Shown here: one piece after another, positions 1,353 through 14,978 of the stretch
Position numbering within the stretch: position 1 is the stretch's first letter
How the letters are laid out: each line of letters begins with the position of its first letter
DNA from: a virus
IMG/VR virus record: IMGVR_UViG_3300009008_000074
Span: 1-45,568 of that record
Length of the DNA: 45,568 bases
Reading direction: 5' to 3' (one strand)
Notes under the pieces: generated by a model
The model's database searches: none
The model's input: the letters and a program-made list of their open reading frames with translations, nothing else
What the model was told of the DNA's origin: nothing
Program-made: the position numbers and the translations under genes

Positions 1353-4300
1353 ATGGCTGAGCAAACTTTTAGATCCCCCGGGTTTTTTGAACAAGAAGTT
1401 GACTTAACACAACGAGTTCAATCTCCCTTGGGAACACCCGCAGGTATTATAGGCACTTCTGATAAAGGCCCAGCCTTTGTACCGGTATCTGTAGGGTCCT
1501 TCGCAGATTTTAAAACTAAATTTGGAGATCTTAATTCTAAGAAATTTGGTCCTTATGCGGTAAATGAATTTTTAAAACACAGAGATGCAGTAACCTATGT
1601 AAGAGTTTTGGGTGCAGGAGCAAATGAAACAACTACAGATTTTAATACAACTTCAACACAGGGTTCTGTTAAAAATGCAGGTTTTAAAATAACGCCCGTA
1701 ACTTCAAATGCACAACATTCAGTAGGGGCTGTCCATTTTCTCGCTGCAAAACATTATGTTTCTGCATCAGAAGCTTATGGATATCCGGTCTTTACTCATA
1801 ATGATTCATTTGGTGGAACAAAATTTGTTAATCTAGTTCGAGGCATTATTTTTACAACAAATGATACTCGAGTTGGCGTTTTAAGTGCATCACTTTATGC
1901 ATCTGCATTTAATGCAGGTGATCGATTAGCACTTGAGGGTGGAGACAATATTGCTACACCGTATTCTGCAAGTAATGCTTCGGGAATGGGCGAAAAATTC
2001 AAGCTAATTATTTCCTCATCAGATACAGGTTTCGGAGGAGAAGCTCCTGATGCTGCTAATGGAATTCGTGTTTTAACCGCGTCTCTAAACCCAAGAGACA
2101 AAGATTACATTAGAAATATTCTTAACACGAATCCTGATAAGTTTTCACAAGAAAAACACTTGCTTTATGCAGCATTTGATGTTGAGCCAGAAATTGCTGC
2201 AATGGCAATCGCAGACAAGTCTGTTGTAATGATGTCAGGATCATCGATTACTTCTCCAAATAATAATGGTGGAGAAAACTTCCTTACATCATTTGGTCGA
2301 TTTGATACAAGATATACAACTCCAAGAACAACCAGCTTTATTTCACAACCTTTTGGTCGAACAGAATATGATTTATTCTATTTTGAAACGCTAAGTGACG
2401 GCGCATATGGAACTGGAAAATACAAGATTTCTATAGCTAATGTCCGCGGATCTACAGATGAAAACAACCCGTACGGAACGTTTACAGTTCAAGTAAGAAG
2501 TTACGATGATAACGACAAGTCAAGAGAAGTTCTCGAAGAATTCCCAAATTGTGACTTAAATCCTAGCTCTGAAAACTTTATCGGAAGAATGATCGGCGAT
2601 AAAAAAGTTACATTTAACTTTGACGCTGAACAAGAATCAGAAAGAAAAGTTATTGTTTCCGGAAAATATGCCAACAAATCCAACATTATAAGAGTTGTTC
2701 TTTTAGATGATTTGGTAAGCAAAAGCGCCCCAAAAGAATCTCTTCCATTTGGATTTAGAGGAATACCTACACTTAAAACTAGTAATAACTTAGCAGATTC
2801 ACTTCCTGGAACATCTACATCGACTGCACTTAAATCAACACGATCTAGGCTTGGAATTCATGCAGCACGCACGCTTCCATCTAGTTCACAAGGTGGAAAC
2901 TTAACGGGATCAATTGTTCCGCCTGTCCCACTTAGATTTAAAGTAACAAATGGTGCAGTAAAATCAGGAACTGCTCCCTTTGTTGGATTCCCAGGAGATC
3001 AAGAAACAGTTGATAATCGATTCTACTGGGGCGTTAAGACGACAATGATACCAGGTGATAGCTCAATTCAAGATTCCGGAATTTCAAATGCTGCATTAAA
3101 ATCAAATGCTTCATCTGAGGTCAACAAGGGGTTGATTGATCAAACTAAGTTTTTGGGCATTCAAAAAATGGATGTTCTTGCAACTGGTTCGCAAATAATA
3201 CCTGCAAAGGCTGGCGACTTCAAGACATTCAATAACAATAAGTTTACTTTAGCAAGGGTTGCATTATCACGCCGAGCTGGCGGAACTGCCACAGGAACCT
3301 ATAATGATACAGAGATTACAGGCGCAATTGGCCCGTTTATGAGAGAGGCAGTCTATATAAGAGACGGACTAGTAAATCCGTCATCTTATACAATAAATGA
3401 TAGCCAAACTGAGGGCGCAAATAGAATTACCTTTGCAACGATGCTAAATCAAACTTCTTCGCTTACATTTAATAAGTTTACAGAGTATACAAAGTTTACA
3501 AACATATTTTATGGCGGATATGACGGTTTTAATATTTTAGATAAAAATGCTGCAAGAATGAATGACAAGTCTACATCTCTAGATACGTCTGGCGGAGCTA
3601 ATATATCGTTTACATCACCGGGTATGTCATCTAATATGGCAGGAACAGGTAAAGATAATAATGCAGTAAGATCATATCGTGCAGCAATTGATATCATGAC
3701 AGATCCGTATGCAGTCAATACAAACATCTTAGCAATTCCAGGAATTAGAGAGACATTTGTTACTGACCACGCGTTGGATAAAAACAAAGATTATGGAAAA
3801 TCTATCTATCTAATGGATATGCCAGAGTACGATGGAGATGGAAACAGGCTCTATGATGACTCTACTGGAAAACCAAGCGTCACAAAAACAATTTCAGAGT
3901 TTGAAAGAAGAACACTTGATAATAATGCCGCGGCCGCCTACTTTCCAAACGTAGTTATTAGCGATGATAAAACAGGAGCAAATATCGAGGTGCCAGCCTC
4001 AGTTGCAGCTATAGCAGCGCTAGCCTATAATGATAAAATAGCTTATCCTTGGTTTGCTCCAGCTGGATTCAATAGAGGCGCTTTAGACTTTGTTCAAAAT
4101 GTAGGGGTAAGACTAACAGCGGGCGACAGAGATTCGCTATATAGCGCAAGAATTAATCCAATTGCAACATTCCCACAGCAAGGGTATGTAATATTCGGAC
4201 AAAAAACACTACAACAAGCCAAGTCGGCCCTTGATAGAGTCAACGTAAGAAGAATGCTCCTTGAGGTTAAGAGAATTGTTTCGCAAGTAGCTAATGGATT

Positions 4301-4547
4301 CGTATTTGAACAAAATACGCCCGCGCTACGATCAAAATTTGTTGCTCAAGTTACACCTTTGCTGGCCGTTGTCCAAGCGCAAAGTGGAATTGAACAATTT
4401 AAGGTTGTCATGGACGACTCTAATAATAGCCAAGAGGATATCGAGGCTAACAAGCTAAATGGTCGAATTGTAATTGTTCCGACTAGAAGCATTGAATTCA
4501 TATCAATTGATTTCATTGTCACAAATGCGGGCGTAAGCTTTGCATAA
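1353..4547 (+). CDS. Contractile tail sheath protein, copy 1
   Basis: This 1064-residue protein is a gp18-family sheath subunit that forms the contractile outer tail cylinder. The N-terminus has the family signature: FRSPGFFEQEVDL, then GTPAGIIGTSDKGPAFVPV and a KFG motif. The C-terminal domain (about residue 900 on) has YPWFAPAGFNRG, PQQGYVIFGQKTLQ, a DRVNVRRML helix and a final IEFISIDFIVTNAG strand, all typical of sheath proteins. It is far longer than T4 gp18 (659), so the central region (about 150-800) carries large extra domains. The ATG has a good ribosome site (AGGAG). It is followed 36 bases later by a second, related sheath gene. Confidence 0.93.
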   Translation: MAEQTFRSPGFFEQEVDLTQRVQSPLGTPAGIIGTSDKGPAFVPVSVGSFADFKTKFGDLNSKKFGPYAVNEFLKHRDAVTYVRVLGAGANETTTDFNTTSTQGSVKNAGFKITPVTSNAQHSVGAVHFLAAKHYVSASEAYGYPVFTHNDSFGGTKFVNLVRGIIFTTNDTRVGVLSASLYASAFNAGDRLALEGGDNIATPYSASNASGMGEKFKLIISSSDTGFGGEAPDAANGIRVLTASLNPRDKDYIRNILNTNPDKFSQEKHLLYAAFDVEPEIAAMAIADKSVVMMSGSSITSPNNNGGENFLTSFGRFDTRYTTPRTTSFISQPFGRTEYDLFYFETLSDGAYGTGKYKISIANVRGSTDENNPYGTFTVQVRSYDDNDKSREVLEEFPNCDLNPSSENFIGRMIGDKKVTFNFDAEQESERKVIVSGKYANKSNIIRVVLLDDLVSKSAPKESLPFGFRGIPTLKTSNNLADSLPGTSTSTALKSTRSRLGIHAARTLPSSSQGGNLTGSIVPPVPLRFKVTNGAVKSGTAPFVGFPGDQETVDNRFYWGVKTTMIPGDSSIQDSGISNAALKSNASSEVNKGLIDQTKFLGIQKMDVLATGSQIIPAKAGDFKTFNNNKFTLARVALSRRAGGTATGTYNDTEITGAIGPFMREAVYIRDGLVNPSSYTINDSQTEGANRITFATMLNQTSSLTFNKFTEYTKFTNIFYGGYDGFNILDKNAARMNDKSTSLDTSGGANISFTSPGMSSNMAGTGKDNNAVRSYRAAIDIMTDPYAVNTNILAIPGIRETFVTDHALDKNKDYGKSIYLMDMPEYDGDGNRLYDDSTGKPSVTKTISEFERRTLDNNAAAAYFPNVVISDDKTGANIEVPASVAAIAALAYNDKIAYPWFAPAGFNRGALDFVQNVGVRLTAGDRDSLYSARINPIATFPQQGYVIFGQKTLQQAKSALDRVNVRRMLLEVKRIVSQVANGFVFEQNTPALRSKFVAQVTPLLAVVQAQSGIEQFKVVMDDSNNSQEDIEANKLNGRIVIVPTRSIEFISIDFIVTNAGVSFA

Positions 4548-4583: not shown

Positions 4584-7500
4584 ATGGGTGAACGTACTTT
4601 TAAAAGCCCGGGAGTAAGAGCTTTTGAGATTGATAGATCAGGACCAACTCCTTCTGGGCCTACCGGTGTTCCAGCAGGTGTTATAGGAACCTCACAAGAG
4701 GGGCCAGCTTTTGTCCCGGTTACAGTATCAAACTTTTCCGAATTTGAAACAAAGTTTGGTTTTATAGATGGATCACAATTTGGTCCGTTAGCTGCTCAAG
4801 AATGGCTTAAGAATGCAGGAGCTTTGACATATGTTAGGGTTCTTGGAGCAGGTGATGGAAAAAGAAGATCAACATCTGATGGAACTGTAACGCGAGCAGG
4901 ATTTGTTGTCGGTGATCAACAACCTTTGGCAACACAATACCTCGGAGATAATCCGAGTGCCAACACAGGCGGCCCCGGAGGCCAGCTAGGTAGAACATAT
5001 TTTCTAGGCTGTTATATGTCAGAATCTGCAGGGAGTACAATCTTGCAAGATTCAGGGATAGAAAGAGCGGCCGATACCGATACTGTTCGAGGAGCATCAT
5101 CAATACTTCGAGGAGTTCTAATGGCCGCCTCGGGCGTTGCTCTAAGATTATCTTCCTCGAACGGCGTTGTTAATAGCACGACCCCCGCCTCGTCAGATGA
5201 TTCTTCAACAGTCAGAGGATTTCTTACGGGTACTGTTAACTTTGTTAATACATCTCCAAAATTCACTATGCTTCTTCCGGGTCACAAAGGAAGTGATTAT
5301 CCAAGAGTTCTAACTGCGTCTTTTGACCCTACAGATAAAGATTATTTTGCTAATACATTCAATAAGGACCCGCAAAAGATTCAAGATCATGGCTACGTTC
5401 TCTATACGCACTACGATGTTTATCCTAGCTTTGCTGTAGTAACAGGATCAGGAATCACAGCTAAGGGTAGATCTATGATCAATAGCGCAGTTTCACCCGC
5501 AGGCCTCTATTCAGGAAGTGCAGATGTCGCATTCTTGCTCACGGGTGCCTTAGGAAGAGATGCAGGCGCAACAGCCACACCTAATTTTGAAAACTTTAGA
5601 GAAAGATTTAGAGCAGCAAGAACACCATTTATTGTATCACAAAAATTTGGTGGATCTGCAAAAGATCTATTTAGAGTTCATATGCTTAGCGACGGAGTTC
5701 TTAAAGGAAAATCGTCAGATTCAGTAGGGTCTAATACAAAGTATAAGCTTTCAATTGAAAACGTCGCTAAGTCATCAGATGCTTTGAATAAATACGGAAC
5801 ATTCGATCTTGTCCTTAGAGACTTCTATGATAATGATGAAAATGTATTTGTATATGAGTCGCATAGAGGTCTTACCTTAGATCCTACATCGACAAATTAT
5901 ATTGCAAGAAGAATCGGCGATTTAAACACGTATTACGACTTTGATCAAGCAGCAGGATCGCAAAAACTTGTTGTAGAAGGAAAATATCCCAATGTTTCAA
6001 GTAGAATTCGAGTTGAAGTATCGTCCGATGTAGATGAAGACGAGATAGATGATGAAGCACTTCCCGTTGGATTTAGAGGCTTAGATCACCTTCTAACCTC
6101 AGGTTCTAATGCATTAGCAGCACCACCCGATTCATCAGGTGGTGCACATCAAATTCAAAAAAATCCATCGCTTGTTCTAAAATCAGCTGTCCAACCCCCG
6201 GTGCCTTTAAGAGAAAATATTGCAATGGGTCTTGCTCCCAAGAAGATTCCAAACAAATCTCTTTATTGGGGTGTTCAATTTGAAAAGAAAATACTTTTAA
6301 ATGAGCCAAATAAAAGCTCAGTTATTGATCCCACTATTGCCAGCTTTACAAAATTCTTTCCAGATTTTGCAGTTTCAAATCTTAATGTTATGACTGGATC
6401 AAATGCTGGAGAAGCAGATTCTAGTGGGTTTGTATTAGATTGTGATAAGTTTAACAACAATGGCTTTACACTTGAAAATGTTAGAGTTGCAACTGGTTCG
6501 AACGGCTTAGCAACAACGGTAGATAGTTATCTTGTTAATAGCTGGTCCTACGTAAGAGATGGTGATATCTCAATTAGCGATGCAAATAAAACAAGAGCAT
6601 TCAATGTGTCAGATACAGCAAGCCCAGCTGTTAGAAGACTTGCTAAATTCACAATGCCATTCCAGCAAGGATTTGATGGATCTAATATATTTGATAAAAA
6701 TGCTGCAAGCCTATCTAATCTCTCTGCTAAGGGAGAAATGGATGACTCTAATAGAGGATTAACAGCAGGAAATACTGTTGCGGCATTTAAAAAAGCGCTA
6801 GACGTTATGGGAGAAAAAGCAGATGTTAATATCCAGCTTCTAGCTCTTCCCGGAATGAGAGTTTCAACTATAACTGATGATGCAATTTCAACTGTTGAAA
6901 ATAGATTTGATGCACTATACTTGATGGACATTGAAGAAAGAGATACAGTAAACTCTGTAGTTACATCTTCTATTCAAAACGTAAGTGTAACAAATACAGT
7001 TTCGTCATTTAATGATAGATCTTTAGACAGTTCATTTGCTGCAGCATACTTCCCAGACTTGAACGTAGATGTTCAGGTTAAAACACTAAATACAGCAACA
7101 AAAACAGTCGTTGCCAATACTGCGACTGTTCAAGTACCGCCTTCGGTTTCTGTTCTCGGAGCATTTGCATTTAATGATGCTGTAGCATTCCCGTGGTTTG
7201 CTCCTGCGGGCTTTGCAAGAGGCTCTATGGGTGCACAATCAATTGCAGTAAGATTGAATGAAGATAATATCGATGATCTAAACGACAAGAGCATTAATCC
7301 AATTATTAGCTTCCCAAATAGTCAAGGCCCGGTCATATTCGGACAAAGAACATTGCAATCAGCAGCATCTGCTTTAGACCGCGTAAATGTTAGACGACTC
7401 TTGATTGACTTGAGAAGATCTGTAAAACAAGTCGCCCAACAATTAATTTTTGAACCAAACAGAGAATCAACATTGCAAAGATTTACTGCACTCGTCACTC

Positions 7501-7691
7501 CGATCATGAAGCGCGTCCAGCAAAATCAGGGCATCGATCGATTCCGTGTTATTATTGATTCTAGCACTACAACACAAGTAGATATCGAAAATAATACAGT
7601 TAGAGGCAAAATCTTTTTACAGCCTACACGAACAGCAGAGTTTATTTCTCTAGATTTTGTTGTAACAAATTCAGGAGTAGAAGGACTTTGA
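4584..7691 (+). CDS. Contractile tail sheath protein, copy 2
   Basis: This 1035-residue protein is a second gp18-family sheath subunit, clearly related to its upstream neighbour. It shares the N-terminal KSPGVRAFEID and GVPAGVIGTSQEGPAFVPV segments. It also shares the central GFRG and PPVPLR landmarks and the C-terminal FPWFAPAGFARG, VIFGQRTLQ, DRVNVRRLL and AEFISLDFVVTNSG elements. The variable central third differs from copy 1, as expected for exposed domains. A GGAG ribosome site precedes the ATG. Two full-length sheath genes suggest a mixed sheath or alternative sheaths. Neither copy is broken. Confidence 0.92.
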   Translation: MGERTFKSPGVRAFEIDRSGPTPSGPTGVPAGVIGTSQEGPAFVPVTVSNFSEFETKFGFIDGSQFGPLAAQEWLKNAGALTYVRVLGAGDGKRRSTSDGTVTRAGFVVGDQQPLATQYLGDNPSANTGGPGGQLGRTYFLGCYMSESAGSTILQDSGIERAADTDTVRGASSILRGVLMAASGVALRLSSSNGVVNSTTPASSDDSSTVRGFLTGTVNFVNTSPKFTMLLPGHKGSDYPRVLTASFDPTDKDYFANTFNKDPQKIQDHGYVLYTHYDVYPSFAVVTGSGITAKGRSMINSAVSPAGLYSGSADVAFLLTGALGRDAGATATPNFENFRERFRAARTPFIVSQKFGGSAKDLFRVHMLSDGVLKGKSSDSVGSNTKYKLSIENVAKSSDALNKYGTFDLVLRDFYDNDENVFVYESHRGLTLDPTSTNYIARRIGDLNTYYDFDQAAGSQKLVVEGKYPNVSSRIRVEVSSDVDEDEIDDEALPVGFRGLDHLLTSGSNALAAPPDSSGGAHQIQKNPSLVLKSAVQPPVPLRENIAMGLAPKKIPNKSLYWGVQFEKKILLNEPNKSSVIDPTIASFTKFFPDFAVSNLNVMTGSNAGEADSSGFVLDCDKFNNNGFTLENVRVATGSNGLATTVDSYLVNSWSYVRDGDISISDANKTRAFNVSDTASPAVRRLAKFTMPFQQGFDGSNIFDKNAASLSNLSAKGEMDDSNRGLTAGNTVAAFKKALDVMGEKADVNIQLLALPGMRVSTITDDAISTVENRFDALYLMDIEERDTVNSVVTSSIQNVSVTNTVSSFNDRSLDSSFAAAYFPDLNVDVQVKTLNTATKTVVANTATVQVPPSVSVLGAFAFNDAVAFPWFAPAGFARGSMGAQSIAVRLNEDNIDDLNDKSINPIISFPNSQGPVIFGQRTLQSAASALDRVNVRRLLIDLRRSVKQVAQQLIFEPNRESTLQRFTALVTPIMKRVQQNQGIDRFRVIIDSSTTTQVDIENNTVRGKIFLQPTRTAEFISLDFVVTNSGVEGL
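6120..6145 (+). other. GC-rich hairpin inside sheath 2
   Basis: GCACCACC (6120-6127) is perfectly complementary to GGTGGTGC (6138-6145), with a 10-base loop. It lies in codons for a Pro/Ser/Gly-rich linker. It may be a chance product of Pro and Gly codons or an mRNA structure; no U-tract follows, so it is not a normal terminator. Confidence 0.4.
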
Positions 7692-7744: not shown

Positions 7745-8233
7745 ATGGCTGAAACTCTTTCCGTTTCTGAAATGCTTCCAAATAAGTTTGAACCGAAACG
7801 CAATTTTCGGTGGGTTTTTTCTATTGAAGGTATTGATGCCTTCTTAATGAAAGAGGCTGCACGCCCACAAATACAAACTCCAGACAAGGCTATTCCATTT
7901 ATTAATCACACGCGCTATGTTGCAGGACGAACAACCTTTAGCACTCTTGGTGTAACACTTTATGATCCAATTGCACCATCGGGTGCACAACAAGTTATGG
8001 AGTGGATTCGCACGCATTTTGAATCAGTCTCAGGGCGATCTGGCTATGCTGACTTTTATAAACGTGATTGCCAAATTAAAATGCTAGATCCAATCGGAAC
8101 TGTTGTAGAATTGTGGGACATTAAAGGTGCATTTATTACAGATGCTAACTATGGAACTCTAAGCTATGACAGTGATGATCCATCAAATATTACACTCACG
8201 CTAAGATTTGACAATTGCGTTCTTCAATACTGA
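7745..8233 (+). CDS. Tail tube protein (gp19-like)
   Basis: This 162-residue protein is the size of T4 gp19 (163) and should form the inner tail tube through which DNA passes. Tube-family traits are the NFRWVFSIEGIDAFLMKEAARP strand-turn segment near residues 20-40, the VTLYDPI strand, the VMEWIRTHFE helix and a C-terminal beta stretch (ITLTLRFDNCVLQY). Position immediately after the sheath genes matches the 18-19 order of T4-like phages. TAGGAGAT gives a strong ribosome site before the ATG. Confidence 0.9.
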   Translation: MAETLSVSEMLPNKFEPKRNFRWVFSIEGIDAFLMKEAARPQIQTPDKAIPFINHTRYVAGRTTFSTLGVTLYDPIAPSGAQQVMEWIRTHFESVSGRSGYADFYKRDCQIKMLDPIGTVVELWDIKGAFITDANYGTLSYDSDDPSNITLTLRFDNCVLQY

Positions 8234-8310: not shown

Positions 8311-9159
8311 ATGTCTAGAAATGAAATTTTTAATAAGGCTGGAGGCACACCGCCAGTTCCTTCAATGATGAAAGAAACACAGTCACAACTTTCTCAAGAA
8401 TTGGGATTTGATATTCCGGTCGAGACTGTTCCTTTGCCTTCTCTTGGGAAGGTTTATCCTGAGAATCATCCACTTCATATGTCACAAACTGTTGATATCA
8501 GAGCAATGACAGCCAGGGAAGAAGATATCCTTACGTCAAGAGCATTATTAAAAAACGGTAGTATGATTACACGCTTAATTGGATCTTGTCTGACTGATAA
8601 AAATATTGACCCGAATACACTTCTATCAGGTGATAGAAATGCAATTTTAACTGCTATTAGAATTACCGGATATGGGTCTGACTATAATTCTAATATTACA
8701 TGCCCATCTTGTGAAGTAGGACAAGTTCATATTTGCAATCTAACAGACTTGCCAATCAAGTCACTTGATATTGACCCAATAGCACAAGGCCAGAATGAAT
8801 TTGAAATGGTTTTGCCTATGACCGGTAAAAGAATAACTCTGAAGTTCACTACAGGCTATGATGAAAAAGAGTCACAAACAATAGAAGAAAGAAAAAAGAA
8901 GCAAGGTCTTGTGTCAGAATCTTCTGTTACAGATAACCTATTCAGGGCAATTCTTTCAATTGAAGGAAATTCTGATAGGACGTTTATCAACAAGTTTGTT
9001 CGTAATATGCCTGCAAAAGATTCTTTAGCAGCAAGATCATATATAAAGCTTAATGAACCAACCGTAATGATGTCTTCACATTTTACATGCAAGAATTGCG
9101 CGCACGAGGAGGTGCTTCCCCTTCCAATAGGGGCTACCTTTCTTTGGCCTGAATCCTGA
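8311..9159 (+). CDS. gp26-like baseplate/tail assembly protein, zero-frame product
   Basis: This 282-residue protein resembles the T4 gp26 'T4_baseplate' family that acts in tail hub or tube assembly. Family-like traits are the conserved VPLPSLGKVYPENHPLH segment near residues 40-56 and the MTAREEDILTSRALLKNG block near 66-83. Two Cys clusters may bind zinc: C131-x2-C134...C142, and C260-x2-C263 near the C-terminus (HFTCKNCAHEE). The ATG has a GGGAG ribosome site. The gene ends in a short region that overlaps an open +1 frame encoding a conserved-looking extension, so this is likely the short form of a frameshifted pair. Confidence 0.75.
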   Translation: MSRNEIFNKAGGTPPVPSMMKETQSQLSQELGFDIPVETVPLPSLGKVYPENHPLHMSQTVDIRAMTAREEDILTSRALLKNGSMITRLIGSCLTDKNIDPNTLLSGDRNAILTAIRITGYGSDYNSNITCPSCEVGQVHICNLTDLPIKSLDIDPIAQGQNEFEMVLPMTGKRITLKFTTGYDEKESQTIEERKKKQGLVSESSVTDNLFRAILSIEGNSDRTFINKFVRNMPAKDSLAARSYIKLNEPTVMMSSHFTCKNCAHEEVLPLPIGATFLWPES

Positions 9160-9361
9160 AGATAGAGAAATATTTCTTGAAAGTGCTTTTTTATTAATGC
9201 GCTATGGAGGATTCTCATATTCTGAGTGTTATAAACTGCCTGTGCAATATAGAACATGGTTTATCGACAGAATAGTAAAAGAAGTTAGTAAGGAAAAAAA
9301 TGCTAATAGAAGCGCAAGAAATACTAGAAATAATTCTAATATGACAAGAAGATTCACTTAG
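9131..9361 (+). CDS. +1 frame extension of the gp26-like protein (probable frameshift product)
   Basis: The frame +1 to the gp26-like gene is open from 9131 (after a TAG at 9128-9130) to TAG 9359-9361. It encodes a segment containing NPEDREIFLES, LLMRYGGFSYSECYKLP and YRTWFIDRIVKEVSKE, then a basic Asn/Arg tail. An 'LMRY..FSY.xAYxLP..xRxWFxxR' pattern is, from memory, found in small proteins encoded next to gp26 in T4-like phages. There is no good ribosome site: the only in-frame ATG (9197) cuts into the conserved part. Joined through a +1 shift it would make a protein of about 349 residues. It fills what would otherwise be an unexplained 234-base gap. Confidence 0.65.
   Translation, partial: GLPFFGLNPEDREIFLESAFLLMRYGGFSYSECYKLPVQYRTWFIDRIVKEVSKEKNANRSARNTRNNSNMTRRFT
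9142..9159 (+). other. Candidate +1 frameshift site
   Basis: The zero-frame codons here are CTT TGG CCT GAA TCC TGA. Two positions could support +1 slippage into the extension frame. One is CTT followed by T, where the CUU reader can re-pair on UUU, like the CUU-U slip of prfB. The other is TCC followed by the slow stop TGA, where re-pairing is on CCU; this resembles the CCC-UGA site reported for Listeria phage PSA. Either gives the same reading frame. The choice cannot be made from sequence. Confidence 0.5.
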
Positions 9362-9393: not shown

Positions 9394-11457
9394 ATGGCAG
9401 ACTCTAAAAAACCCGAGCAGACTACCAAGTCAGTTGAAGAATTGACTGCAGCCTTAGAGCGTTTGCAGTCTGTTTTAAGTAACTTTAATTCTGGAGCAAC
9501 AGGCCTAACAGATCTTAAAAAATCTCTAGAAAAGCACCAGGAACTAGTTGCGCAAGTTGCAGAATCACAAAACAAGTCAACACGTGCATTTTTAGAAAAC
9601 AGTAAAAAACATAAAGCAGTTCAAATTGAAGCTTCTCGAGCTATGAATCTTCATAATCAAACACTTCAAAGCAATAAAATATCTATAGACAAATATAACG
9701 ACGCACTTAAGGCAGTAGGCATTACTATTGGTGCAAAATTACTTGCAAAAAAACTTCACTTAGAAAAGCTGGGAAATGCATTTAATAGTCTGGGCAAACC
9801 TTTGCTCGACATTGAGCAAAGATCAATAAAGACGTTTGGAACTATTGAAACAGGCGCCGGCCGCCTAGCGTCTGAGGGCGGCAAGGCACTAAGATCATTT
9901 CTTTCTGAGCAAAATACAGGTCTAGCTGCTTCTAGCGCTTCTTTGCAAACTTTTTCATTCAGTATTGAAAAAGCAAGAGAACAAGCTGTTGAAGAGCTTG
10001 AAGGATTAACAAAGGCAGCAGGTGCTAATGCAGAAAGATTTGCAGCAGAACTCTCTGATCCAAAAGCTCTAATAGGAATAAGGGCAATGAGAGAAGCCCT
10101 TGGTCTTGCCACAGAAGATGTGGGCACTTATATAGACAGAGCAGCTGCCTTTGGAACATCTGTCTCAGCACAACTCGCATCAGCTGTAAGAGCAACTAAA
10201 AAATATGCTAAAGAAACAGGTGTTTCTTTTGGACAAGTTAAGAAAGGCCAGGATGTACTAAGAAAAAATACAAAATCATTTGCAACATTTTCAGAACAAC
10301 AACTGGCAAGAGTAGCAGCCGCCTCTGCAAAAACAGGGGTCTCATTAGCAACAATGGGAGGTGGCCTCATTGATAGCTTTGATAGTTTTGATCAAGCTGC
10401 TGAAAAAGCTGCAATGCTTGGGCAGTCATTTGGAATGAGCATCGATGCCTTCGATCTATTTGCTGCAGAGTCTCCCGAAGAAAGATTGCAATTAATTCAA
10501 AAGTCAGCTGAACAAGCGGGTATTGATATTGCTAATATGGGCCGCCGGGAACTCAATTACTTGTCTGAGCTTACAGGTATGGGTGTTGAAGATACAATGA
10601 AAGCATTAGGTCAAGGAGGCTTAGAAGTAGCTGCTGAAGTATCAAGTATGTCAGGAGCTGAAGATTTACAAGCTTCTCTTGTAGCGGCTCAAGGAGAAAA
10701 CTCTAGAACAGTCAAAGAATTGACAACTGCGATAAGGGCACACATTCCTACATTTGTTGATTCTGGTGAAGATATTTTGGCAGGAAGCATTGATAGACTT
10801 ATTAGAAATGCAACCGGTTTAAGGGGCGCCGCCGAAGAACAAGTAGGTGTTAGTGTCAGGGGCGCAATATCAGGAAAAGTACTTCCAGAATCTGGACAAT
10901 CTCCGGGTGGCATCATGGGCCAAATTGCAAAAATTACATCAGACCCCAAATGGGCTAAAGCACAACAAGAAATGATGACGGTATTTTTGCATGAGGGCGA
11001 AGCCGGCGCAACCAGACTATCAGAAGTTTTTGTAAAACATGCAGAAAAAATAACACAAACATCATCAACTTCGGCAGGAATAAAACAGCTAGCATCAGAA
11101 ATAACAGAGTACGGCAAAGAAAAAATCCAAAAAATCAAAGATGCGGGAGGAAAAATCCTGCAATCAAACTTAGCAAAAAATGCTAAAAGAATGTTGCCAG
11201 GATCTGATCAGGGCGGCACAACCGAAAGATCAGAAATGCTTTCTGCTACTGCAGAGACAGAAACAAATGCGGCAATGAGAAAAGGTTTGGCTCCGTCTTC
11301 GTCAAGCGGCCCAATAAATCTTGTTGTCAATGTTTCTCTTCCTGTTGACGGCGATGCAATTGCAACTGCTGCATACAAAGGAAGTATTCGTCCTGATGTA
11401 ACGGGTGAGCAGGCACTTCAAGCAGCCGCCGCCGGCGAAAACGTGGCAGATCAATAA
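9394..11457 (+). CDS. Probable tape measure protein
   Basis: This 687-residue protein is Ala-, Lys- and Glu-rich and largely helical. It starts with a coiled-coil-like segment (about 10-110, ELTAALERLQSVLSNF...LEKHQELVAQVAESQNKS). Ala/Gly-rich amphipathic repeats follow through the middle, and there is a short Ser/Gly linker before a beta-like C-terminus (NLVVNVSLPVDG). Tape measure proteins set tail length and are encoded just after the frameshifted chaperone, exactly as here. At about 1.5 angstrom per residue it would suit a tail of roughly 100 nm. No peptidoglycan hydrolase motif was seen. The ATG follows AAGGATC. The call rests on position and composition. Confidence 0.65.
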   Translation: MADSKKPEQTTKSVEELTAALERLQSVLSNFNSGATGLTDLKKSLEKHQELVAQVAESQNKSTRAFLENSKKHKAVQIEASRAMNLHNQTLQSNKISIDKYNDALKAVGITIGAKLLAKKLHLEKLGNAFNSLGKPLLDIEQRSIKTFGTIETGAGRLASEGGKALRSFLSEQNTGLAASSASLQTFSFSIEKAREQAVEELEGLTKAAGANAERFAAELSDPKALIGIRAMREALGLATEDVGTYIDRAAAFGTSVSAQLASAVRATKKYAKETGVSFGQVKKGQDVLRKNTKSFATFSEQQLARVAAASAKTGVSLATMGGGLIDSFDSFDQAAEKAAMLGQSFGMSIDAFDLFAAESPEERLQLIQKSAEQAGIDIANMGRRELNYLSELTGMGVEDTMKALGQGGLEVAAEVSSMSGAEDLQASLVAAQGENSRTVKELTTAIRAHIPTFVDSGEDILAGSIDRLIRNATGLRGAAEEQVGVSVRGAISGKVLPESGQSPGGIMGQIAKITSDPKWAKAQQEMMTVFLHEGEAGATRLSEVFVKHAEKITQTSSTSAGIKQLASEITEYGKEKIQKIKDAGGKILQSNLAKNAKRMLPGSDQGGTTERSEMLSATAETETNAAMRKGLAPSSSSGPINLVVNVSLPVDGDAIATAAYKGSIRPDVTGEQALQAAAAGENVADQ

Positions 11458-11458
11458 A

Positions 11459-11635
11459 ATGAGTAAAAAAATACATAGTAATAATATAAGCACTCCTGCT
11501 ATTAATAAAGTACTTGAGATTCTTCCTGAGGAAAGTCAAAATCGAGTTAGAGAAGAATTAAAAATTTATACAGATACTTTGGCAAAAGCATTAAAGGCAA
11601 TCAAGATTCTTAGCGGAGACAAGAATGGCAAATGA
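11459..11635 (+). CDS. Small basic/helical protein, unknown
   Basis: A 58-residue protein starting at ATG 11459, one base after the tape measure stop, and overlapping the next gene by 11 bases. This start is preferred because an earlier in-frame ATG (11405) lies inside the tape measure gene. The sequence has a helical region (AINKVLEILPEESQNRVREELKIY) and a Lys-rich end. No family is recognised. Its place between tape measure and baseplate genes suggests a tail assembly role. Confidence 0.6.
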   Translation: MSKKIHSNNISTPAINKVLEILPEESQNRVREELKIYTDTLAKALKAIKILSGDKNGK

Positions 11636-14600
11636 AACAAAAAAAATTCTTGTCCCAAAAGATAAAAATGGTAATGGAAAACTTGGCAATGATTTTACAG
11701 CAGCAAATGCTAATTATGAAAATCTTCCCGATGTTCAAAGAGCAGGAATGGATGATTTGCCGTATAATGCTCAACCTATCGTAGATAACGTCGAAGCTGC
11801 AAGTATTAGTTCTATTCAAGATAAGGTAAAAGCGGATACACAGATTAATTCTCGTCAACCTGGCGATATAAATAGCTTGGAATCTTCAACACAATTTTTA
11901 CCAGGATCCCGCCGACCAGGAACAATTGATCGACCAAGTCAAACTGCAACTTTGGGTCAATTCTTAAAGCAAGGTCGCCCAGGAAGAAGAATACAAAATA
12001 GTGACCAGATTGGCATTGATCATAATGGGAACGAAGTAAGTAGAAAGCTTGGTGGTGATATCCTAAGAGATATTAATACACAAACGCAGGGACGATTTTC
12101 AACTAGCCCGCACGGAAGACCAGTTGCTGGTACACCGGGACCAGCATATGGAACCCCAGAAGTTCAAAGCGGCGCGGGCCCGGTTGTAAAAAGTTCAGTA
12201 TCTGCTGTCTTGGGTATGAATCGATTCGCAGCTATTGGTGAAAAATCTTTTGCCACTGCAGAAACAAATCCTGACAAACAAGTAGTAGGATCCTTCCAAC
12301 CAGAAGTGGGGTCATATAATCCTAATACAGGAGATGATCCGACACAATTTGGTCAATCATTCAATATTGAAAAGCTGAAGTCTATTGGAATCGACATGCT
12401 CCGCGCCGCCGCTGGAATTCATGAAGAAAATGCTGTTAACAAAGATGTTCAAATGGGAAGATCTAGTTTGAGCGCAGATTCATTGCGCCCAAGAAATTTA
12501 TCATCTGGAGAGATCAATAAAGAGTCATTTGATGTATCAAAAGCTTCCACAGGAGAATTCAATCAACCGGAAGATGGAAAACCAAATTTATCATATGGAC
12601 AACTCAACACGCCGGGTTCACCATTTGCTAGTTTGACTCCGAATGAAATGAAAGCACTTTCAAGTGCAATCATTGCTATAACTGTAGAAGCAATACATTC
12701 TAATTCTCTAGTTAATACATTAGTTGCTGGGGCATCTAACAGTTCGTCTCATGGAAGCGCTCCATATACTAAAGGCAGTTTTGTAGAAAAGCCCAAAAAT
12801 GGCGGAGCTTTTGGAAGATCAGCAGTAATTTCACAATCAGATCTTGGATTTATTAATACAGAAATTGAATTTTCATTGGCTGTTGATGCTGGATTAGCAA
12901 TTCTTTTAGGCGATAATAGCACAGGAATAGTTGAAAAATTCTCTGGAAATTTAAATTTACAAAATAGCATTAATCAAGCAAAACAAAACATTGACGCTGC
13001 CCCCGGGTTTTATGTTAATTTTTGTAGAGCTATTTTAAAAGACTCACAAAATCTTAGTGAAAAATTTGCAGAAGTAGGAAATATGGGCACAGGTTCTACT
13101 GAGGGAGTTGCTGCCGCAATTGGAATTATAGATGTATTTAGATCATCTAAACTAGTTGCTTGCATTAATACACTAGCCACTATTGGAGACTCTGCAGCCA
13201 GAGCTTCATCTAGCCCATATTCAATTGATCAAATTTCTCCTTCGGGCGATATTGGAATTCTTAATGATGGTGCAATTGGAGTGTCATATAATCCAGCATC
13301 ACACGCAATGAAAAGTCGAGATGGTAATAAAGTTGCAGGAGGTGTTGATTCACTTCGTCTTGCATGGAGAAGTTCCTCGACTCCAAGCATGTATCTCCTC
13401 CCAGCAGAAATTGAATATGGTAGTGTAATAAATGGTGCTAAAGGAACTACACCCGGAACTGAATCACCTATGGCTGCGCATGCAAACATGGAAGGGATCA
13501 CAAAATCAGATTCAAGCGGTAGACTTCCGCAGGAGTTTGTTGAAAAGCATGAAGAAATTTTAGATGCTGAATATGTTCCATTCTATTTTCATGATCTTCG
13601 AACAAATGAAATAATTTCATTTCATGCATTCTTAGAAAGTCTAAGTGATGGATTCGCTGCCCAATATACACCTTCGCAAGGAATCGGAAGAGCAGAGCCA
13701 ATAAAGCTATACAAGGGGACAACAAGATCTATTGGATTTAATTTTATTGTTGCTGCAACTAGTAGAGACGACTTCAATGAAATGTGGTTCAAGATCAATA
13801 AGCTTGTTACAATGCTCTACCCGCAGTATACACAAGGCCGCGAAGCAGGAAACCCCACAGAAATATTTGGCCAGCCTATTTTTGGCCAAAACTTTATAAT
13901 GCCCTTTTCTCAAGTAATGTCTGCTTCTCCAATGATTCGTCTTAGAATTGGTGATGTTGTTAAGTCAAACTTTTCAAAATTCAATCTATCTAGATTGTTT
14001 GGCTTGGGAACACCTCAATTAGATCCAATGTCCGCCGGCCTAGGCGTCCCAGCGGCATCATTGGTAGTGTATAGATTGTTATTTCAGGGTCTGGGAATTG
14101 TAAACAATCTTCCCATCCCTGGCATAGCAAAAACAGCAATTTTAAATTCAGCAACAGTTCAATCAAATATTCTTGAGGCTTCACGCTTAATAAAAGAAAA
14201 TGCCAGAAAACTTCCGGTTAGCAATTCTAATGATGCATATGGCTACAAAGTCGGAGACATAGTTAGATTAGGATTTCCAGACATTAGAAAGCTTAAACTA
14301 GCATCTGGGAATGGATCCCCAGAGCTCTTTTTAAATTATAGAAATGCATTTGCAAAAATAGTTTCATTGCCAATTTTTGACGAACAAGGATCTGCAAAGT
14401 CTGTTAGATATCGTGTTCAACTATCAACTACATTTGAAAATGCAAGAACTGGAATCACAGATATATCTGGTCCGACAAATACATATTTTATAAGTCATCA
14501 TGATGTTTCTCTCGTACCCGGTGGACTAATGAAAGAAAGGCTGGTTATTGACGGTTTAAGAAAGGCAACTGGAAAAGCTAACGTTCTTTATAGCACATCT

Positions 14601-14978
14601 GTTCTTACGTTCTTATCAAGCTTTCAAAATGCAGTTGTTCGATCATTTGAGCACTCTGGCGGAAAAGGCCTCCCGGGATTTGTTAAAAACTTAAGCTTTC
14701 AATGGATAGGGCAAGATTCAACATGGGAAGTTGATCGTGGATCTAGAGCGCCAAAGTTTTGCAAAATTCAAGTTAGTTTTGATCCTGTTCACGACATTGC
14801 GCCAGGACTTGATCATACCGGCTATAATAGAGCACCAGTTTATCCTGTCGGCGATGTTGTTAACAATATTGCAGGTAAGTCAAATGATTGGGCTGATGAA
14901 GCTGTTAGTAGTTCCGGAGAATATCTCGATAATGCAGTTTCATGGGTATCTAATAAGACTGAGGATATATTTGAATAA
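11625..14978 (+). CDS. Large baseplate-associated structural protein
   Basis: This 1117-residue protein has a disordered N-terminal third (about 1-300), rich in Asn, Gly, Ser, Pro and Gln. It is followed by a folded part with an EIISFHAFLESLSDGFAAQY segment near residue 660, a GTTRSIGFNFIVAATSRDDFNEMW motif, and GFVKNLSFQWIG...APKFCKIQVSFDPVHDIAPG near the C-terminus. The 'SxGFxxxVAAxxRxDFxxMW' and 'xKxxxxSFxPIHDIxPG' patterns resemble baseplate proteins of large marine myoviruses, but the exact equivalent is not known to me. It overlaps its neighbours by 11 bases upstream and 1 base downstream, so it is in a tight operon with the other baseplate genes. Confidence 0.6.
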   Translation: MANETKKILVPKDKNGNGKLGNDFTAANANYENLPDVQRAGMDDLPYNAQPIVDNVEAASISSIQDKVKADTQINSRQPGDINSLESSTQFLPGSRRPGTIDRPSQTATLGQFLKQGRPGRRIQNSDQIGIDHNGNEVSRKLGGDILRDINTQTQGRFSTSPHGRPVAGTPGPAYGTPEVQSGAGPVVKSSVSAVLGMNRFAAIGEKSFATAETNPDKQVVGSFQPEVGSYNPNTGDDPTQFGQSFNIEKLKSIGIDMLRAAAGIHEENAVNKDVQMGRSSLSADSLRPRNLSSGEINKESFDVSKASTGEFNQPEDGKPNLSYGQLNTPGSPFASLTPNEMKALSSAIIAITVEAIHSNSLVNTLVAGASNSSSHGSAPYTKGSFVEKPKNGGAFGRSAVISQSDLGFINTEIEFSLAVDAGLAILLGDNSTGIVEKFSGNLNLQNSINQAKQNIDAAPGFYVNFCRAILKDSQNLSEKFAEVGNMGTGSTEGVAAAIGIIDVFRSSKLVACINTLATIGDSAARASSSPYSIDQISPSGDIGILNDGAIGVSYNPASHAMKSRDGNKVAGGVDSLRLAWRSSSTPSMYLLPAEIEYGSVINGAKGTTPGTESPMAAHANMEGITKSDSSGRLPQEFVEKHEEILDAEYVPFYFHDLRTNEIISFHAFLESLSDGFAAQYTPSQGIGRAEPIKLYKGTTRSIGFNFIVAATSRDDFNEMWFKINKLVTMLYPQYTQGREAGNPTEIFGQPIFGQNFIMPFSQVMSASPMIRLRIGDVVKSNFSKFNLSRLFGLGTPQLDPMSAGLGVPAASLVVYRLLFQGLGIVNNLPIPGIAKTAILNSATVQSNILEASRLIKENARKLPVSNSNDAYGYKVGDIVRLGFPDIRKLKLASGNGSPELFLNYRNAFAKIVSLPIFDEQGSAKSVRYRVQLSTTFENARTGITDISGPTNTYFISHHDVSLVPGGLMKERLVIDGLRKATGKANVLYSTSVLTFLSSFQNAVVRSFEHSGGKGLPGFVKNLSFQWIGQDSTWEVDRGSRAPKFCKIQVSFDPVHDIAPGLDHTGYNRAPVYPVGDVVNNIAGKSNDWADEAVSSSGEYLDNAVSWVSNKTEDIFE

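Follow-up and report, generated by a model that had tools for sequence, protein, structure and literature searches.

Probable +1 programmed frameshifting in a gp26-family gene just ahead of the tape-measure position of a contractile-tailed phage

The window, meaning the whole 45.6-kb stretch of DNA that was analysed, is a fragment of a bacterial virus and comes from a contractile-tailed phage. The gene order around the finding is two tandem sheath-like genes, a tail tube gene, a gp26-family gene, an open +1 frame and a gene for a 687-aa protein. The following features are referred to below.

7745..8233, + strand: tail tube protein (phrog_4542, E 3.8e-29), upstream of the gp26-family gene
8311..9159, + strand: gp26-family protein, 0-frame product of 282 aa (PF12322, 50.9 bits; phrog_150, E 2.2e-15)
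9107..9114, + strand: Shine-Dalgarno-like AGGAGGTG, which also supplies the 5' arm of the hairpin listed next
9108..9141, + strand: predicted mRNA hairpin (pairs 9108-9114/9135-9141 and 9118-9122/9129-9133), whose 3' end abuts the slip codon
9128..9130, + strand: TAG stop in the +1 frame, the upstream limit of the extension frame
9139..9148, + strand: putative slip region TTT CTT TGG C (P-site CTT 9142-9144, which would re-pair on TTT 9143-9145; A-site TGG; next +1 codon GGC 9146-9148)
9143..9361, + strand: +1-frame extension, three-helix domain of 72 aa plus stop, a predicted GT-like tail (AlphaFold2, 53-sequence alignment, distant PF20546 match)
9157..9159, + strand: 0-frame stop TGA, 15 nt past the start of the slip codon
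9394..11457, + strand: large protein of 687 aa in the tape-measure position (by position only, from synteny with phage immuto, which has a tape-measure gene annotated there)

No sequence match was found for the 9394..11457 protein in Pfam, in PHROG or in the comparison with immuto proteins. Each of the two sheath-like genes (1353-4547 and 4584-7691) encodes about 1050 aa and matches the one sheath gene that immuto has. A small ORF with a GTG start (11405-11635) lies 3' of the tape-measure position and overlaps the ends of both flanking genes. The 1117-aa protein encoded at 11625-14978 weakly matches an immuto hypothetical protein and was left without assignment in Pfam, PHROG or NCBIfam.

When the 0-frame product of the gp26-family gene was compared with PF12322, its score was twice the curated cut-off (24.5 bits), and family membership was considered met. 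The protein carries two CxxC zinc-ribbon-like motifs. The gp26-family domain and the extension were modelled with AlphaFold2 as two separate folds from their native translations, and the gp26-family model reached a mean pLDDT of 90. Its top structural match was the HK97 tail assembly chaperone (2ob9_B, Z 4.8, 95 of 104 residues). This Z score is modest and under the usual confidence level, though clearly above that of the second match (2.8). The 0-frame product is likely the equivalent of tail-assembly chaperone G, a prediction in which the function is inferred.

Behind the TAG stop, the +1 frame is open over 9131-9361 (76 aa) and overlaps the gp26-like ORF at 9131-9159. Its first start codon is the ATG at 9197; from the TAG to the conserved portion of the extension, ATG, GTG and TTG are all absent. 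A start at 9197 would cost 18 of the 72 residues counted from the slip codon, including most of predicted helix 1. The absence of these start codons ahead of the extension core is shared by the window and 21 other lineages (22 of 84). The same 1051 bases are present, letter for letter, in two independently assembled metagenome contigs (L001 and L002), and an indel error is therefore excluded. The open length of the frame is by itself weak evidence (among the 552 +1-frame runs within 14 genes of the window, three reach at least 76 codons), and the strong evidence is the conservation in relatives.

In the AlphaFold2 model, the extension has helices at residues 5-22, 26-31 and 34-62, with a pLDDT of about 95 over residues 11-50. 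The domain is conserved in an alignment of 53 sequences, 36 of which match PF20546 (DUF6760) distantly (best E 1.2e-4); the window member is not among the matches. Nothing meaningful was obtained in phages when the window extension alone was used in tblastn, nor against the PDB by sequence and by fold, and an NCBIfam search gave no meaningful match. An exact fusion of the two frames, obtained by reading TGGC as G, has a predicted length of 349 residues. A preliminary description of the locus had stated that the +1 frame is open only from 9131, that it encodes a conserved-looking domain, that this lacks its own ribosome site and that a fusion would have about 349 residues. All four statements held, the third as to start codons (the Shine-Dalgarno-like sequence lies upstream, beyond the TAG) and the last for the predicted fusion.

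In public annotations, the extension appears as a truncated or TTG-started hypothetical ORF in immuto (L004, 4336-4446), SP-15 (L011, 4294-4413) and Mel-JY01 (L006, 4240-4476), and in LIS04 it has no annotation. The extension gene is missed or truncated in most current annotations.

About 100 IMG/VR and MAG loci were retrieved by the window protein, one relative and a profile, and they too have an open +1 frame at the end of the gp26 homologue. Relatives were counted as non-redundant when their hub proteins were <90 % identical, and there were 92 such hub proteins. The extension domain recurs in about 90 non-redundant relatives, where it lies in the +1 frame and overlaps the 3' end of gp26. 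Among the named phages, immuto, Mel-JY01, SP-15, LIS04, GXN1 and BRock have an open +1 frame that overlaps the gp26 homologue at its 3' end and continues towards the next gene, and LuckySocke together with about 80 IMG/VR or MAG lineages shares this junction and its +1-frame extension. When the proteins were joined, they outscored the hubs on profiles that span the junction: that of L014 rose from 16.1 to 27.5 bits against phrog_23772, and those of L030, L117 and L006 outscored their hubs against phrog_150. Sequence comparison thus shows conservation of the frame arrangement, of the slip codons and of the extension domain.

The codon preceding the junction TGG is TTT (74) or CTT (10) in 84 of 84 lineages, and neither TTC, CTC nor any other Phe or Leu codon was found there. 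L005 and L116 have no TGG codon at the junction. The rule holds across third-position GC contents of 0.09-0.85, and given the codon usage of each gene itself its log10 probability is -19.4. This value is not corrected for shared ancestry and, as the lineages are related, P values are inflated. The codon ahead of YTT is TTT or TTC, which gives the conserved unit TTY-YTT-TGG-CCT (mRNA UUY-YUU-UGG-CCU). Conservation of CCT was left out of the slip evidence because the +1 codon CTN can account for it. The constraint on the slip codons may also be in part a +1-frame amino-acid constraint (TTT GGC CTN, F-G-L). In each of 68 lineages the 0-frame stop lies 12-21 nt past the start of the slip codon.

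Re-pairing of a P-site CUU or UUU on UUU, the slip criterion of the prfB type, is met by the YTT-T of all 84 TGG-type lineages. From these counts, slippage of the P-site codon onto UUU at 9142-9145 is likely, and it is favoured against TCC-TGA; the slippage is inferred from sequence alone. Two plausible slip sites had been proposed in the overlap, CTT-T (9142-9145) and TCC-TGA (9154-9159). Both are present, and the former held as the slip site. The latter failed, as it is not conserved in relatives. Most relatives have seven T in a row (TTTTTTTGG). The run is broken by TTTCTTTGG in the window and by TTCTTTTGG variants, for which re-pairing is good only for a +1 and not for a -2 shift. A -2 shift was rejected, since TTC-TTT and TTT-CTT re-pair poorly.

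A second conserved element lies upstream of the slip codon. Under synonymous randomisation, GGAGG, GAGGT or AGGAG would be expected 25-35 nt upstream in 22.5 of the 68 lineages, and it is found in 59; in one column of the element GAG and GAA occur 44:2 compared with 572:1021 over the remainder of these genes. The window hairpin has a predicted energy of -15.1 kcal/mol in a 45-nt fold, and the same inner stem is given by the fold of a 121-nt window. When the 27 nt ahead of the slip region were compared with synonymous-codon versions in 68 lineages, they were more stable, with a mean z of -1.77 against -0.04 for control sites. Hairpin and Shine-Dalgarno-like element are under nucleotide-level selection by sequence comparison. 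The latter might pair with rRNA or merely form the hairpin arm, both being compatible with the data. Its distance of 25-35 nt from the P site is outside the spacings known to stimulate +1 (~3-4 nt) or -1 (~10-14 nt) shifts. A downstream stimulatory structure was not convincing (z -0.36 for the 60-nt MFE).

We conclude that a +1 programmed frameshift in the gp26-like gene just ahead of the tape-measure position is very likely and is the best reading of the locus (probability about 0.87). There are no expression data, and the slippage itself, its rate, the mode of action of the stimulator and the chaperone function are all inferred. In the proposed mechanism, tRNA-Leu would be on CUU (9142-9144) while the A site holds UGG, a codon decoded slowly, and some ribosomes would slip +1 onto UUU (9143-9145). 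Shifted ribosomes would read GGC CUG AAU CCU GAA and make the 349-residue protein ending in the three-helix domain, and unshifted ribosomes would terminate at 9157, giving the form of 282 residues. The probable stimulator would be the hairpin abutting the slip codon, the Shine-Dalgarno-like element that its 5' arm contains, or both. The short form may coat the tape measure and the long form may recruit tube subunits, like lambda gpG and gpGT. The location expected of G and GT is met, as the gene lies between the tube gene (7745-8233) and the tape-measure position. Because of this position, the fold and the proposed two-form expression, the two products are likely a tail-assembly chaperone pair of the G and GT type. 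This too is inferred, and neither tape-measure binding nor absence from virions has been shown.

The extension is also found in other arrangements. In six jumbo-phage relatives (Atu_ph07, Vibrio 2.275.O, Munch, CBB, XacN1 and LR756511), a homologous extension is in the -1 frame, and T_TTT_TTC or T_TTT_TTT is present at the same Phe-Phe position. Profile comparison of the +1 extension gave 95 % (hhalign) with the jumbo extension and 96 % with the extensions of Firmicutes and Streptomyces. In two phages (L023 and L029) gp26 is immediately followed by an ATG-started gene of its own for the extension, so that the fusion is not indispensable. In actinobacterial genomes (L121-L137), in loci which we take to be contractile injection systems, DUF6760 is a separate gene after a CxxC gp26-like protein, in the -1 frame and with an ATGA/GTGA-type overlap that could reflect translational coupling. 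That a single point has changed among +1, -1 and split-gene arrangements argues for selection on appending or co-producing the extension domain. The putative slip site at the gp26 3' end has no frameshift annotation in XacN1, Atu_ph07, Vibrio 2.275.O, Munch and CBB (L010, L144, L145, L147 and L148).

The preliminary description had proposed a probable +1 programmed frameshift just before the tape measure gene, and this is supported with the tape measure assigned by position only. It had proposed an alignment of homologues as a check, and the overlap and slip codons were conserved in the non-redundant relatives. It had also stated that a separate extension gene in related phages, with no conserved overlap, would refute the claim. 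This is met only by L023, L029 and the bacterial injection systems.

Phage T4 was also compared. T4 gp26 and gp51 (gene 26 at 1803-2429 and gene 51 at 2480-3229 of L013) both match PF12322 along their length. gp51 is a paralogue of gp26 (hhalign 98.9 %, E 1.1 × 10−17 over the entire gp26) with about 48 additional C-terminal residues. When the gp51 profile was compared with the window-type fusion, the alignment ran through the junction (71 %, E 3.6e-5), whereas gp51 against the extension alone gave 0.5 %; the gp51 tail is too short for significance. The jumbo extension against the gp51 tail gave 44 % (E 2.4e-4). The evidence that the gp51 tail and the extension are homologous is thus only suggestive. 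T4 may make its G (gp26) and GT (gp51) pair through gene duplication. T4 gp28 was tried as the equivalent of T and showed no relation to the fusion.

It is very unlikely that the extension is a separate small protein, begun at a non-standard start codon in the overlap and coupled to gp26 termination. This reading draws support from the homologous domain being its own gene with an ATG or GTG start and a stop-start overlap in L023, L029 and the actinobacterial contractile-injection loci, and from the upstream AGGAGGTG. However, the +1 frame has no ATG, GTG or TTG before the core in the window and the 21 other lineages, the TAG sits between the Shine-Dalgarno-like element and the extension, the slip codons are conserved despite being irrelevant to initiation, and canonical -1 heptamers are at the same place in the jumbo relatives. 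Shifted mRNAs might also be made by transcriptional slippage, for which the seven T of most relatives would be suited. In about 20 of 84 lineages including the window, however, the run is interrupted and only 3-4 T are left, and frame and extension are kept; transcriptional slippage is therefore all but excluded, and -2 slippage is unlikely.

The possibility that the extension frame is an unexpressed pseudogene or assembly error could be raised while the first-stage reader had one sequence only. We regard it as practically ruled out by the same sequence in two independent contigs and by protein-level conservation over dozens of lineages. The frameshift could also be real and its products be minor structural proteins of the baseplate hub rather than chaperones. 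Baseplate hub is the annotation of the family, and some T4 genetics put gp26 in the hub (PMC3004832). Nevertheless, gp26 and gp51 are tabulated as hub assembly chaperones (PMC3004832), and the position before the tape measure, the proposed two-form expression and the HK97 chaperone similarity also speak against this reading, which we consider unlikely.

A bolder reading extends the frameshift and chaperone interpretation. In this reading the gp26/gp51 family would provide the tail-assembly chaperone for contractile phages of the T4 and jumbo types, the short/long pair would be an ancient constraint with at least four interchangeable solutions at one junction (+1 at YUU_UGG, -1 at U_UUU_UUC, duplication in T4 26/51 and a coupled split gene in injection systems), and the +1 version would be driven by hairpin refolding behind the ribosome. 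As a joint claim, we give it no better odds of holding than of failing. If true, the missing chaperone would turn out to be a family that has carried a baseplate-hub annotation for decades, and the role of T4 gp26/gp51 would be directly testable. It would also provide a natural +1 frameshift that is widespread, has a sense codon in the A site and is preceded by a conserved 5' element, as well as a single junction at which the direction of the shift has changed between +1 and -1.

A 2016 review describes wide conservation of G-T frameshifting among long-tailed phages, with T4 as the exception (PMC5009743). No earlier report of frameshifting in the gp26 family was found in the open-access literature searched, and an unseen report is possible. 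Tail-chaperone frameshifting is already known; what is likely new is the protein family, the +1 shift with a UGG A-site, the conserved 5' element and the switching of direction within one family.

Lambda gpG/gpGT and P2 E/E' occupy the same gene place, between the major tail (tube) gene and the tape measure, and also give a short product and a frameshifted one with an extra C-terminal domain. They differ in using a -1 shift on a heptamer instead of +1 at YUU_UGG, and the N-terminal protein of the gp26 family is much larger. There is no detectable sequence relation to gpG and only the modest fold match to the HK97 chaperone. In the case of prfB (RF2, CUU_UGA), the CUU to UUU re-pairing, a slow A-site codon and an upstream Shine-Dalgarno-like element are shared. 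However, the A-site codon of the window is UGG (Trp) and not a stop, and the element is 25-35 nt upstream instead of ~3, with a hairpin in between; the prfB criterion of a stop codon and a 3-4 nt spacing is not met.

+1 frameshifting was called very likely for the tail chaperone of the haloarchaeal myovirus HSTV-2 (PMC5009743); its host is archaeal, and the likeness rests on the description without sequence comparison. T4 gp26/gp51 shares PF12322 with the window, and the C-terminal 48 residues of gp51 fall opposite the extension when gp51 is aligned to the fusion, whereas its two forms come from separate genes without a frameshift. The two-gene tail chaperonin of phage 0305phi8-36 (gp143/gp144), whose paralogues were proposed to recapitulate G and GT without frameshifting (PMC2147016), belongs to another protein family and is a precedent for the T4 hypothesis only. 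The actinobacterial DUF6760 (PF20546) loci have a domain homologous to the extension right after the gp26-like CxxC protein, and differ from the window in encoding it as a separate coupled gene.
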